Shown here: positions 20,066 to 61,072 of the stretch, piece by piece
Position numbering within the stretch: position 1 is the stretch's first letter
Layout: each line of letters opens with the position of its first letter
From: Butyrivibrio sp.
GTDB taxonomy: Bacteria > Bacillota > Clostridia > Lachnospirales > Lachnospiraceae
Length of the DNA: 64,000 nucleotides
Assembly (NCBI RefSeq): GCF_017433805.1
Contig: NZ_JAFRGN010000013.1
Coordinates: 372,001 to 436,000, forward strand
Direction of reading: 5' to 3'
Position numbers and translations under genes: made by a program
The notes under the pieces: model-generated
Told to the model about the DNA's origin: nothing
Seen by the model: only the letters and a program-made list of their open reading frames with translations
Databases searched by the model: none

Positions 20066-20106
20066 ATATTTCTTTCTATCTTTTTTACTACTTACAGCGA
20101 TATTAC

Positions 20107-20244
20107 GCATGTCTCCACTTCGTTCTCGACATGCTACGTCCATTCGAAAATCAACAGGCTCTCTTCATTCGCCTGTCTTTTTTTCTCATGTCCGTTCAGT
20201 CATTTCATAAACACAGTTTTTTATGCAAGCATAAAACTGTGTTT
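20107..20244 (-). promoter_or_regulatory. Structured leader upstream of the helicase gene
   Basis: Three hairpins fall between pgsA and the helicase start. Minus strand, in order: AAACACAGTTTTATGC pairing with a GCAT...GTGTTT arm (20244-20209, 16 bp with a 2-base bulge); ACAGGC/GCCTGT (20176-20154) followed by TGATTTTC; and GCATGTC/GACATGC (20134-20107), whose 3' arm contains an in-frame ATG and whose loop holds GTGGAG. The middle one also ends in CTTTTTTT on the plus strand. Such leaders could allow cold- or self-regulation, but no experimental link is known to me. Confidence 0.5.
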
Positions 20245-20262
20245 ACTCATTCCTTATATCGC

Positions 20263-58309: not shown

Positions 58310-58386
58310 ATAAGGCCTCTCTAACAAGATAAACCACAATATTATGTGTCTGTGAATAGCTACTACAACATCATATACCTAGTACC

Positions 58387-58415
58387 ATTATACAATATTT
58401 CGTGCATTCTCAAAA
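58387..58415 (-). promoter_or_regulatory. Promoter of the CbiD-like gene
   Basis: On the minus strand TTTTGA (58415-58410), a 17-base spacer and a perfect TATAAT (58392-58387), about 75 bases before the ATG at 58309. Confidence 0.6.
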
Positions 58416-58502
58416 GAAATATTGCAAAATTAACTATATATCGTATCTTAGTTATTGATTATTTCGATTTACTTTATTTTTAATTTATAAATCGTCCATA
58501 TT

Positions 58503-58531
58503 TTGTCCAAATTTAGACACTATTATATATA
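58503..58531 (+). promoter_or_regulatory. Promoter of small RNA A
   Basis: TTGTCC (58503-58508), a 17-base spacer and TATATA (58526-58531). Transcription would start about 58537, at the first base of the 5' hairpin, which supports a non-coding RNA beginning there. Confidence 0.65.
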
Positions 58532-58534
58532 CTA

Positions 58535-58660
58535 TCAGAAGTGAATAACTTCTGACTCCCCCAACAAAACTTTTTTCATACCGGGTCGATCGGCTCCCCA
58601 CTGGTCGACCCCTCCTCCCAAAAAAACAACCACCTATCAATCTTGATAGGTGGTTTTATT
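58535..58660 (+). ncRNA. Structured C-rich small RNA, copy A
   Basis: Predicted trans-acting RNA, no gene name known to me. Parts: 8-bp hairpin TCAGAAGT/ACTTCTGA (58535-58555); C-rich linker starting TCCCCCAACAAAAC (58557-58582); 11-bp hairpin (58583-58611) with GGGTCGATCGG paired to CTGGTCGACCC and loop CTCCCCA; tail TCCTCCC then A-run; and terminator 58628-58660. Copy B at 59158 shares linker, loop and tail base for base but has different, still pairing stems. The three unpaired C-rich pieces can pair with GGAGG-type ribosome sites. No open reading frame. Confidence 0.8.
58628..58660. terminator. Shared terminator of small RNA A and the 109-aa gene
   Basis: AACCACCTATCAA and TTGATAGGTGGTT form a 13-bp perfect inverted repeat with a tiny loop. 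The plus strand continues TTTATT; the minus strand continues GTTTTTTTGGG. It serves both convergent units. Confidence 0.88.
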
Positions 58661-58988
58661 ATGCTGTCAATACTTCTGAGCTCTCTGTCTCTTCTGTTAT
58701 GTTGTCTTCTACCATGACCTCGGCTACGCTATCTCTCTCGCTATCTGCCATGATCGAATCAGTCTTCCTGGGACCTCTTACCCCAAAGCTTCCTGTATAT
58801 CTGAGCGCCCCCAGGATTTTCTTAACATTCTTAAGTTCCTTGTCCATATCCTCAACTCTGGCACAGACAACAGTAGGAACTCCACTGCCATTGAACTCTA
58901 CTCTAAGTCCTGAATCCTTAAGTGTCTTGAAAGCCTTAAGCTTGTCTGTTGTACTTATTTCATCTACTTCTTTTATATTCTTTGCCAT
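58659..58988 (-). CDS. Hypothetical small protein, 109 aa
   Basis: I do not recognise this family. The protein has a charged N-terminal helix (MAKNIKEVDEISTTDKLKAF), a short beta stretch with VEFNGSGVPTVVCARVEDMD, a Lys-rich helix and an acidic tail of about 25 residues (SERDSVAEVMVEDNITEETE). No membrane helix or signal peptide. AAAGG precedes the ATG, and a good promoter (59017-59045) lies upstream. It is flanked by the two small RNAs, with copy A convergent and sharing its terminator and copy B divergent. Confidence 0.75.
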   Translation of the reverse strand: MAKNIKEVDEISTTDKLKAFKTLKDSGLRVEFNGSGVPTVVCARVEDMDKELKNVKKILGALRYTGSFGVRGPRKTDSIMADSERDSVAEVMVEDNITEETESSEVLTA

Positions 58989-59016
58989 ATCTTGTGCCTT
59001 TCTTTAATTCAAACAC

Positions 59017-59045
59017 AATATAACATACATTTAATATTTTTGCAA
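59017..59045 (-). promoter_or_regulatory. Promoter of the 109-aa gene
   Basis: On the minus strand TTGCAA (59045-59040), a 17-base spacer and TATATT (59022-59017), 29 bases before the ATG at 58988. The -35 lies in GCAAACGTTCG, which is partly palindromic and could bind a regulator. Confidence 0.6.
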
Positions 59046-59157
59046 ACGTTCGTTCTGACACAACTGCACAATTTATTAATCGTTATTTCGTATATTATTT
59101 TTCGTATTTTTTATACTAAATAGTGTTAAGTTTTCACTTGCCCCACCGATATATATA

Positions 59158-59279
59158 GTGAGAATAAAAATTCTCACTCCCCCAACAAAACTTTTTTCAT
59201 ACCTGGGCTGTTTAACTCCCCATTAAGCAGCCCTCCTCCCAAAAATTCAAAGAGACGGCCAGTTGACCGTCTCTTTTTT
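59158..59279 (+). ncRNA. Structured C-rich small RNA, copy B
   Basis: Second member of the RNA pair. Parts: 8-bp hairpin GTGAGAAT/ATTCTCAC (59158-59177, loop AAAA); the same linker (59178-59203); 11-bp hairpin GGGCTGTTTAA/TTAAGCAGCCC (59205-59233) with the identical loop CTCCCCA; tail TCCTCCCAAAAA (59233-59245); and terminator 59249-59279. The promoter is weaker than that of copy A: TTAAGT (59126-59131), an 18-base spacer and TATATA (59150-59155). No open reading frame fits. Confidence 0.78.
59249..59279. terminator. Terminator of small RNA B and the protease gene
   Basis: AAGAGACGG pairs with CCGTCTCTT around an 8-base loop, followed by TTTTC on the plus strand; the minus strand continues TGAATTTTTGGG. 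It ends small RNA B and serves the convergent gene at 59291. Confidence 0.85.
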
Positions 59280-59290
59280 CTTGTTCATCA

Positions 59291-61072
59291 TTACTTGTTT
59301 ACTGTATATGCTTTTACAAAAAAGTCTTTATCATCCTGCCTTATAAGGCTGGTACCATCTTCTGAAATATAATAGCTACAGCCGCTTGCCGTATAGTTAT
59401 TATGTACGTTACCAGTAAGGTTATTCCATTCGTCATAGTTGGGCTTACTAATATCGTTAACGGAAGGCTCATAAATAAGCTTTCCTGAGGTTACAGGCTT
59501 GATCAAGATAAAGAATTCATCTCCGCCATTTAACTCGATATCTCCAGGAAGCTCAAATGTATGATATCCGCCGCTTATAGCAGCTGCCTTCATGGATATA
59601 TCAGCATGTCCAAGATCATCCAACCGGATAGTCTCTCCATCATTTTCAGGATTAACGTATATTTCAAACTCGTACTGCTGATATGTATCAAGTCCCATAA
59701 GACCTATAGCTTTAAGATTCTCTTTTCCCTGAGCTTTATAGAGCATTCCATAGGCATTGGTAGAATCGCTGTAGGCTGTGACATAATTGTCTGAATCCTC
59801 CAAAGTACTGACCATATATGTCAAAAAGCCGGCTGCCTGATAATTGTTGTCGTAGAAGTTACTCTGGCCTGGGACAGCTGATGAATAAGCTGCCACATTA
59901 TTTCTTCCTGTGGTCTGATCATAATATGACAGATAAAAGCATCCGTTCACTCCAGGTAGCGTTCCCCAGCTGTTCTTACAAATCCATGCTCCATCCCCTG
60001 GCGGAGTAATTGCAAAATTATCTTTGCTGTATTCATCATCCCAGCCGATTATCAGAACTTCATGATTGGCTGTAGGAATGTCTTTTCCTCCAAAATCCGC
60101 ATATAACGTGGAATTGTGATTCTTCCAGAATGGATCATCTGCGTATACTCCAGCTGTAACACTGCCATGCTCCATGATAAGCTGCTTGATCATGTCATTG
60201 TTGTCGTAGTTAGCAGGAACCTCGTTTACATCCTGCACATGATATTCGCTAGCAAAGATATCTGAAGGAGTATCACCGTTATCCTGGAAAATGTATTTGG
60301 AACCATATAAGCTCTTAAAAGCATCATTTCCTTTTTCGGAAACAGGTCCTTTCCAGGCTGTGAGAAGACTTATGCAAAAGTCCGCAACACCGCCAGTAGC
60401 AATATAATTGGTATCATAGTCAAATATCCAGGCATTTTCCTCATTGTCTGCATTTACAAATTCACGGTAGTCGTTATCTATGTATCCATTTACTGAACCT
60501 TCGGCCTTATGCATATTACTGTAAGCCATATGTTTTTCAGACAGATCCAGTGTATCTCTGGACAGATTCTCATTGTGAAGCAAAAGGTCGCTTTCTATAG
60601 CTCCAAGTGAAGCATAGGTCCAGCACAGATAAGTATAGCCCTGATCCTCTATAGCCGTGATATAGCTCTTTCCATCCACATCTCGTGAATCGTATTTAGT
60701 TGGAATTTCTTCTCTGGAAAAAGAACGAGCATCGACAGGAATGATATCTAGAAAATCTCCATTCCCATAGAATTTGTCAGCATCACCCTCAGATATGCTG
60801 ATAGCCTCAGGTATAGTAATGACTTCTACCTTTTCTACCGGCAAGGCGACTGGCTGAGGCTCTGTGGCTTCCTCTGTTGCAGAAGCTATAGCTTCATCAG
60901 GCTTGTCAGAAGTAGGAACTTCGCTACTATCCTCTACTTCGCTATTAGTAGCAGTTACCTGCTGCTCTGTTGTAGCAGAATTATTCCTACCAGATAAGCT
61001 ATAAAAAGCCACGCCACAAACACCAACAACCGCAACGCCAGCGATTATCGCAATTATCACTTTCTTGTTCAT
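59291..61072 (-). CDS. Secreted papain-family (C1) cysteine protease with lectin-like domain
   Basis: A 593-residue protein anchored by an N-terminal hydrophobic segment (about 4-25), then a Thr/Glu/Ser-rich spacer (about 30-75). The protease domain follows: IEDQGYTYLCWTYAS has the oxyanion Gln144 and nucleophile Cys150, ANHEVLIIGW the catalytic His337, and ICKNSWGT the Asn367. The rest (about 400-590) is beta-rich, matching the lectin-like domain often fused to these proteases. GAGGGG precedes the ATG. It probably acts at the cell surface on host, plant or own-wall proteins. Confidence 0.92.
   Translation of the reverse strand: MNKKVIIAIIAGVAVVGVCGVAFYSLSGRNNSATTEQQVTATNSEVEDSSEVPTSDKPDEAIASATEEATEPQPVALPVEKVEVITIPEAISISEGDADKFYGNGDFLDIIPVDARSFSREEIPTKYDSRDVDGKSYITAIEDQGYTYLCWTYASLGAIESDLLLHNENLSRDTLDLSEKHMAYSNMHKAEGSVNGYIDNDYREFVNADNEENAWIFDYDTNYIATGGVADFCISLLTAWKGPVSEKGNDAFKSLYGSKYIFQDNGDTPSDIFASEYHVQDVNEVPANYDNNDMIKQLIMEHGSVTAGVYADDPFWKNHNSTLYADFGGKDIPTANHEVLIIGWDDEYSKDNFAITPPGDGAWICKNSWGTLPGVNGCFYLSYYDQTTGRNNVAAYSSAVPGQSNFYDNNYQAAGFLTYMVSTLEDSDNYVTAYSDSTNAYGMLYKAQGKENLKAIGLMGLDTYQQYEFEIYVNPENDGETIRLDDLGHADISMKAAAISGGYHTFELPGDIELNGGDEFFILIKPVTSGKLIYEPSVNDISKPNYDEWNNLTGNVHNNYTASGCSYYISEDGTSLIRQDDKDFFVKAYTVNK

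Follow-up and report, generated by a model that had tools for sequence, protein, structure and literature searches.

Among the small RNAs (sRNAs) that act on translation initiation regions, the RsaE/RoxS family of Staphylococcus and Bacillus targets Shine-Dalgarno (SD) sequences through C-rich single strands, and both this family and LhrC are represented in the Rfam library. In the accessible parts of the reports on the CiaRH regulon of Streptococcus, the csRNAs are described as several paralogous sRNAs per genome, with promoters that carry the CiaR direct repeat TTTAAG-N5-TTTAAG (11-bp period), and with stem-loops that leave anti-SD and anti-start sequences unpaired (CAU in 53 of 61) and contain a conserved nonamer with UCCUAAA (PMC3091779, PMC8186281). 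According to its abstract, the work on LhrC1-5 of Listeria concerns a multi-copy sRNA under control of the LisRK two-component system, which has three redundant CU-rich sites and impedes translation of the mRNA for a cell-wall-associated protein (PMC4132741).

The locus described here lies in a window of 64 kb (the whole stretch of DNA that was analyzed) from a Butyrivibrio genome. An initial annotation had proposed two plus-strand copies of a structured RNA, identical in linker, loop and tail, with stems that differ in sequence and still pair, and with a terminator at the end of each copy. Re-reading of the sequence bears out the two copies, here A and B (Table 1), and both hairpins: linker, loop and tail are the same, the stems differ and pairing is kept. 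The terminator scan likewise places a terminator-like stem and a T run at the end of both. In A as well as in B, the 5' hairpin is followed by the linker CUCCCCCAACAAAACUUUUUUCAUAC, the 11-bp hairpin with its C-rich loop, CCUCCUCCC and the terminator, the segment after the 11-bp hairpin reading (C)UCCUCCC. By this layout, A and B look like intact sRNA genes. A 109-aa open reading frame (ORF) with no Pfam match lies between them on the opposite strand (58659-58988, minus), and a papain-family (C1) peptidase with a lectin-like domain adjoins copy B (59291-61072, minus).

Table 1. Predicted features of sRNA copies A and B and of their upstream regions (positions in the window).
Feature	Position	Strand	Basis
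11-bp direct repeat GTCCATATTTTGTCCAAATTT, putative OmpR/PhoB-type response-regulator box of A	58494..58514	+	pattern search, lag-11 periodicity
Copy A -10-like TATATA / TATACT	58526..58533	+	by eye; not listed by promoter scan
sRNA copy A, predicted transcript (3' end approximate, within the T-rich tract after the terminator)	58535..58659	+	fold z=-9.25, R1 111.9 bits, covariation
Copy A 5' hairpin, 8 bp (58535-58542/58548-58555), loop GAATA	58535..58555	+	fold, covariation
Copy A, first of the C-rich single strands, CTCCCCC (complement of GGGGGAG)	58556..58562	+	sequence
Copy A anti-start module CUUUUUUCAUA, complementary to UAUGAAAAAAG	58570..58580	+	divergent paralogues retain U-run-CAU
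Copy A spacer hairpin, 11 bp (58583-58593/58601-58611), loop CTCCCCA	58583..58611	+	covariation
Copy A anti-SD module (tail) CTCCTCCC	58612..58619	+	sequence, duplex energies, cofold
Copy A terminator, with a stem of 12 bp that is terminator-like on both strands	58628..58655	+	terminator scan
Sigma-28/SigD-like promoter of copy B, TTAAGTTT-N11-ACCGATAT	59126..59152	+	pattern search
sRNA copy B, predicted transcript (ends approximate)	59158..59282	+	fold z=-8.68, R1 78.4 bits
Copy B 5' hairpin, 8 bp (59158-59165/59170-59177)	59158..59177	+	fold, sequence
Copy B anti-start module CUUUUUUCAUA	59191..59201	+	sequence
Copy B spacer hairpin, 11 bp (59205-59215/59223-59233), loop CTCCCCA	59205..59233	+	fold, covariation
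Copy B anti-SD module (tail) TCCTCCC	59234..59240	+	sequence
Copy B terminator stem-loop and T run, also terminator-like on the minus strand	59249..59276	+	terminator scan

No Rfam model matches A or B at gathering level, in agreement with the initial view of an undescribed family, and at 14 other loci, each with a family copy, the only Rfam match is a tRNA. Eight sub-threshold matches (up to E=10) between 58400 and 59350 fall below the gathering scores and were not accepted; the best are OmrA-B (E=0.016) and the PyrG leader (0.7), which both cover the terminator stem on the minus strand, and suhB (1.2). The LhrC and RsaE/RoxS models give no match at gathering score over the 64-kb window and none up to E=10 over 58400-59350. 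The RsaE/RoxS family, as generally described, differs from the copies described here (A and B, with their paralogues C, D and E) in the multi-copy state, in U6CAU and in the hairpin spacer. For Butyrivibrio and other Lachnospiraceae, to which Clostridium phytofermentans belongs, no comparable family of trans-acting sRNAs turned up in the open-access literature searched, PMC5171806 and PMC3050895 included; Clostridium listings could hold single copies. Unnamed non-coding transcripts are mentioned in the accessible part of a transcription-start map of C. phytofermentans (PMC5171806).

Like the csRNAs, as far as these are covered in the accessible sources, the family occurs in multiple copies, has a promoter repeat of 11-bp period upstream of non-B copies, and has unpaired anti-SD and anti-start sequences: in the predicted folds of A and B, U6CAUAC and CCUCCUCCC are largely unpaired, and the order of the motifs is kept in the divergent copies. 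The CiaR box TTTAAG-N5-TTTAAG is absent upstream of A (58351-58560) and B (59001-59180), and the nonamer motif UCCUAAA is absent from A-E. Unlike the csRNAs as described there, the copies have another repeat sequence, a covarying hairpin that parts the anti-AUG from the anti-SD sequence, one member with a sigma-28-like promoter, a Lachnospiraceae host and no Rfam match. With LhrC they share the multi-copy state, repeated C-rich sites and two-component-type control, the last being predicted here; a U6CAU module in front of a spacer hairpin, as present in A and B, does not appear in the LhrC abstract (PMC4132741). By the sequence features compared, the csRNAs of CiaRH and LhrC of LisRK are the nearest functional parallels, and the family is a member of neither.

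Both copies fold better than expected from their composition, as none of 200 dinucleotide shuffles was as good for either of them. In an alignment of 28 sequences made with MAFFT and without structure (A4), 13 of the 19 pairs change on both sides, a count reached by none of 500 shuffles, and 98.3% of 532 cells pair, against 33.6-49.2% when the partner is slid by 1-3 columns. For the spacer hairpin, two-sided changes are found in 9 of 11 pairs, with 99.7% of cells paired. All 19 pairs change on both sides in a second alignment of 41 sequences (A6), which was fitted to the model and hence leans towards structure. Four terminator-like sites in 951 bases (0.3 expected) correspond to two stems, each read on both strands, and a terminator-like site lies within 70 nt of 50 of the 61 distinct genus copies, where 0.8 would be expected. 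At the level of sequence, covarying structure, conserved single strands and terminator-like stems are thus established. The initial annotation had inferred a non-coding RNA family kept for its structure and C-rich single strands, and had named a covariance-model search of related genomes as a check; that search returned more copies with paired substitutions, and the inference holds. Since a third copy in the same genome and dozens of copies in the genus are alike, the pattern seen in A and B is more than chance.

The genome contains three close copies, A, B and C (the last on contig C27), and two divergent ones, D and E. Two covariance models were used: R1, from 28 copies picked from the 61 distinct genus copies without B rows, and R2, from the 41 sequences of A6. 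The latter took 33 of 46 sources, rows under a cut-off also falling away; left out were nine genus loci, L067 (a near-duplicate of L066), L070 and L074 (in which the second hairpin is followed by CCCCCC) and L071 (which by eye lies on a tRNA). When R2 was run over nine loci with filters off, copy D scored 37.0 bits (E=6.3e-6) and copy E 23.4 bits (E=0.0043). Copy D was recovered in the order-wide R2 scan (33.3 bits) and copy E was absent from its matches; E is a weakly supported member of the family. The weak R1 matches of 0.758 and 3.79 in this genome are not claimed as copies. Copy C is followed, some 170 bases downstream and on its own strand, by a weak R1 match of 19.8 bits (L002 1258-1344, minus) that reads AACUUUUUUACACC-hairpin-ACUCCC, without CAU at that place, and is perhaps a decayed or variant copy.

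Searched with copy A as DNA, 72 of 79 genus genomes match, including 45 of the 47 of high quality, and a B copy begins 586-684 bases downstream in 20 of 30 A-type loci. R1 matches 14 of 397 genomes drawn over the family (this genome included), and R2 matches 37 of 392 drawn over the order, namely 18 of the genus (again with this genome) and 19 others, all of the same family, the sample's share outside the family not being given. As about 4 genomes are expected by chance at E<=0.01 in each scan, single weak genome matches are not all real; on the other hand, genome searches score only some candidates, so that the spread is a lower bound. R2 matches number 2 to 8 per genome in Butyrivibrio and 7 each in four genomes of genus g321. 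A core-pattern scan of named genomes gave at least 120 stretches, and R2 run on 80 of these matched 26 at E<=0.1. Records titled Lacrimispora, Hungatella, Candidatus Enterocloster, [Clostridium] citroniae and further Clostridium or Lachnospiraceae names are in this set; the count of 26 includes one false match in Paenibacillus (L162), which lies on a coding start. The plasmid collection gave no match, and the IMG/VR viral contigs gave none to the exact 23-base core, a search that reaches close copies and not divergent ones.

What the divergent copies keep is a U run with CAU, a hairpin and CCUCC, whereas the sequence of the hairpin and even its C-rich loop vary; a few variants of CCUCC occur, such as CUCCUC in copy E. 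This pattern is partly circular, as the models were trained on such copies, but the promoter repeat alone had led to D and E, which are therefore independent cases of the constant modules. The complement of U6CAUA, UAUGAAAAAA, is a start codon followed by two lysine codons (AUG-AAA-AAA), and CCUCC is complementary to the Shine-Dalgarno sequence. The order CAU-hairpin-CCUCC is that required for antiparallel pairing with SD and AUG on one mRNA, the hairpin lying opposite the SD-AUG spacer. The first account of this locus was right but too small: it overlooked the start-codon clue in U6CAU and the additional paralogues, as well as two features of the upstream regions, a sigma-28-like promoter at copy B and repeats of the response-regulator type.

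When part of copy A (linker to tail) was cofolded with the 342 predicted starts in 436 kb of its own contig, two-site pairing was found at 160 of 342 start regions, against 55 for shuffled and 31 for reversed sequences. At start regions, the mean energy is below all 60 shuffles for each of the anti-start modules of A, D and E, that of A being close to its reversed form (-4.78 against -4.51). Similarly, the mean duplex energy of the first C-rich strand of copy A at SD regions is below all 60 shuffles and slightly lower than that of the reversed strand (-7.25 against -6.87), and copy A and its reversed module are close at SDs (-8.81 against -8.68). The complementarity itself is evident; part of the pairing signal stems from properties that start regions have in general.

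An export-like N-terminus is predicted for 32 of the 80 best anti-start-A genes compared to 68 of 342 overall (Fisher p=1.1e-6), gene calling and the export rule both being crude. Shuffled anti-start modules give a mean of 16.2 and a maximum of 26 export-like genes in 80, and none of 100 reaches 32; the best 80 contain 21 for the reversed module, 27 for D and 22 for E. With the tail added, the counts are 32 (A), 33 (D), 26 (E) and 26 (reversed), the tail alone giving 26. These counts trace the preference for exported proteins to the anti-start modules of A and D; for E it is weak. The listed stretches of the named-genome scan also include 32 loci with a 12-base gap that are gene starts on the opposite strand, by title from Paenibacillus (30), Cohnella and Chengkuizengella. 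In 31 of these 32, an ORF of 275-1255 aa opens with MKKSL or a MKKSLS-like sequence and has the look of a signal peptide; the RNA core thus reads as the negative of an MKKSL-type gene start. No dominant target emerged from this genome, in which the extended complement with at most 3 mismatches has 7 matches (2 of them the sRNA genes) compared to 5 for the reversed control. The strict pattern GGAGG-N4-9-ATGAAAAAA occurs at 8 sites against 2 in the control, two of the eight having been scanned with Pfam. Pairing is especially good for the mRNA of a DUF4349 lipoprotein-like protein (L115), with -19.7 kcal/mol for the linker and -19.8 in the cofold.

Upstream of copy A, the initial annotation had placed a promoter exactly at the first hairpin. 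A TATATA/TATACT sequence just before the hairpin, found by eye, agrees with this, but the promoter scan lists no sigma-70-like site there. A and other copies are preceded by GTCCA/TTCAYA-like repeats, and with up to 3 mismatches the GTCCATATTTTGTCCAAATTT pattern has 8 matches in the genome against 1 for the reversed control. Besides A, these are three matches inside reading frames (L083, L085, L087) and four that precede paralogue D, paralogue E, a regulator/kinase pair (L086) and a PilZ protein (L088). In 45 regions upstream of non-B copies (46 were picked, and L223 was dropped as too short), lags 11 and 22 stand out in self-similarity (z=14.6 and z=10.9, respectively), in a test that includes related sequences and uses mononucleotide shuffles, which keep base composition only. 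TCA/TCC pairs occur at lag 11 in 33 of the 45 regions and at each of the lags 6-10 and 12-17 in 5-14 of them; for single copies in the genus, the 11-bp repeat often does not reach significance. As judged from the sequence pattern, the upstream layout is that of OmpR/PhoB-type sites.

The repeat-like site at L086 (1501-1521) lies upstream of genes for an OmpR-family regulator and a histidine kinase in the same genome, which makes this regulator a candidate for the one that controls the sRNAs, with autoregulation. At L088 (1501-1552), the same kind of repeat is found just upstream of the PilZ-domain protein gene. A distant family copy at L075 (1501-2511) is divergent to an OmpR-type response regulator gene with which it shares the intergenic region. 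The regulators at L075 and L086 are 32% identical and do not name the regulator of the sRNAs. Control by the Pho regulon was also considered and is not supported by the pstS-like loci: of nine PBP_like_2 upstream regions, three agree with TTCACA pairs at 10 or more of 12 positions, and the repeats in these three are TTTACA, whereas sRNA upstream regions in the same genomes as the TTTACA pst promoters mostly read TTCACA. The only PF12849 match of the genome with copies A and B lies outside a recognizable pst operon.

The consensus for sigma-28/SigD promoters is similar to TAAAGTTT-N11-GCCGATAA. The promoter of copy B fits this at 13 of 16 positions with a spacing of 11, and a degenerate sigma-28-like pattern occurs 3 times in the genome and not at all in the reversed control. 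The other two matches lie upstream of flgM-flgN (Pfam FlgM, FlgN) and of an ORF without Pfam match. All 19 B copies among the 61 distinct genus copies have a sigma-28-like promoter at the same distance, 17 scoring at least 12 of 16 and two scoring 11; of the 42 non-B copies, none scores 12 and two score 11 at other positions. A sigma-70-like site (TTTTCA-17-TATAGT, 59131-59159) overlaps this promoter, the scan giving 5 such sites where 3.2 are expected. At the level of sequence, B thus has the promoter pattern expected in the sigma-28/SigD regulon, shared with flagellar genes of this genome. As near-identical pairing segments are combined with different promoters, the copies seem to answer different signals.

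We consider it probable, with some reserve, that A and B are trans-acting sRNA genes of one multi-copy family that block start sites in the manner of csRNAs and LhrC, with a seed that is split by a hairpin. Activation of A and most paralogues would fall to an OmpR-family response regulator, and transcription of B to the flagellar sigma factor. The RNA would base-pair with translation initiation regions, U6CAUA on AUG-AAA-AAA and CCUCCUCCC on the Shine-Dalgarno sequence, while the covarying hairpin would stay folded between both sites as a spacer (a three-way junction). With SD and start codon covered together, the 30S subunit could not bind. The C-rich loop and the 5' linker of A and B may offer extra SD-binding sites. 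As exported proteins typically begin with MKK, the mRNAs of lipoproteins and other envelope proteins would be favored. The elements of this model that we infer are transcription, pairing within the cell, repression and the identity of the regulator. More tentatively, and with somewhat less than even confidence, we suggest a Lachnospiraceae-wide sRNA system in which a bipartite anti-AUG-Lys-Lys and anti-SD seed is split by a covarying spacer hairpin, with up to 8 copies per genome wired to different inputs (a two-component system or the flagellar sigma factor), which would lower the synthesis of exported proteins globally under envelope stress or during motility. If true, the Lachnospiraceae would have a conserved multi-copy translational regulator, motility would be tied to an sRNA through sigma-28, and the seed would have a layout with a structured spacer opposite the SD-to-AUG gap. 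The family provides ready candidates for tests in culturable strains.

Other explanations need to be weighed against start-site blocking. A structured RNA might bind mainly a protein or the ribosome, its C- and U-rich strands serving as a decoy or as a mimic of the 16S anti-SD sequence, with no particular mRNAs selected. The linker is indeed invariant in the genus beyond the need of a seed of 7-9 nt, the C-rich motifs occur three times over in A and B, and no single best target emerged. A decoy has no obvious need for CAU directly after the U run, however, and the constant order CAU-hairpin-CCUCC fits antiparallel pairing with SD and AUG, which makes this explanation unlikely. It is also improbable that A and B are two specialized sRNAs with one or a few dedicated mRNAs each (e.g. 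for envelope or motility functions), their broad complementarity to translation initiation regions being incidental. Although B alone is under a sigma-28-like promoter and the DUF4349 lipoprotein-like mRNA pairs especially well, the pairing segments of A, B and C are identical or near-identical even though their promoters differ, so that common targets are more likely, and the presence of 2 to 8 model matches in each genus genome also speaks against dedicated partners.

The terminator-like stem that closes each element could point to cis-acting leaders or attenuators of downstream genes. Such a role was already disfavored and is very improbable, since the long ORFs downstream of A and B are on the opposite strand, the copies occur in many different places, and among 11 distant loci only L070 and L074 have a common neighbor (by eye). 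A coding reading would have the minus strand encode a tiny protein with an MKK start after an SD-like run, the plus-strand features being a by-product: in A, B and C, the minus strand does read ATGAAAAAA after a G-rich stretch. The resulting peptides differ (MKKVLLGESEVIHF, MKKVLLGE and MKKSIVGGSEGMSF), a run of 6 or 7 T shifts the frame, and the frame is variable and only 5-35 aa long at all but one (L162) of the 26 named-genome loci that R2 matched. These short variable frames and differing peptides led us to reject the coding reading, and the compensatory stem changes favor an RNA; we regard it as barely credible. Start-site blocking by a family of trans-acting sRNAs remains the explanation we prefer.

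Several other observations concern related elements and RNA genes. In two genera, related-looking elements (GCUUUUUCAUACUCAUACC, hairpin, CCCCCC) at L070 (1501-1562, minus) and L074 (1501-1567, plus) are both divergent from a gene that by eye reads like MreB/Mbl. Copies were also found in records titled Paenibacillaceae MAG SIG287 (L158 1252-1339; L186 188-269). They score under R2 as Lacrimispora records do, with 43.9 bits (L169, L207) and 47.5 bits (L211), and the label of this MAG may thus be wrong. The 64-kb window itself also contains a tmRNA gene (2075-2430, minus; Rfam 136.9 bits) and an Rfam Clostridiales-1 RNA (20098-20261, minus; 86 bits).
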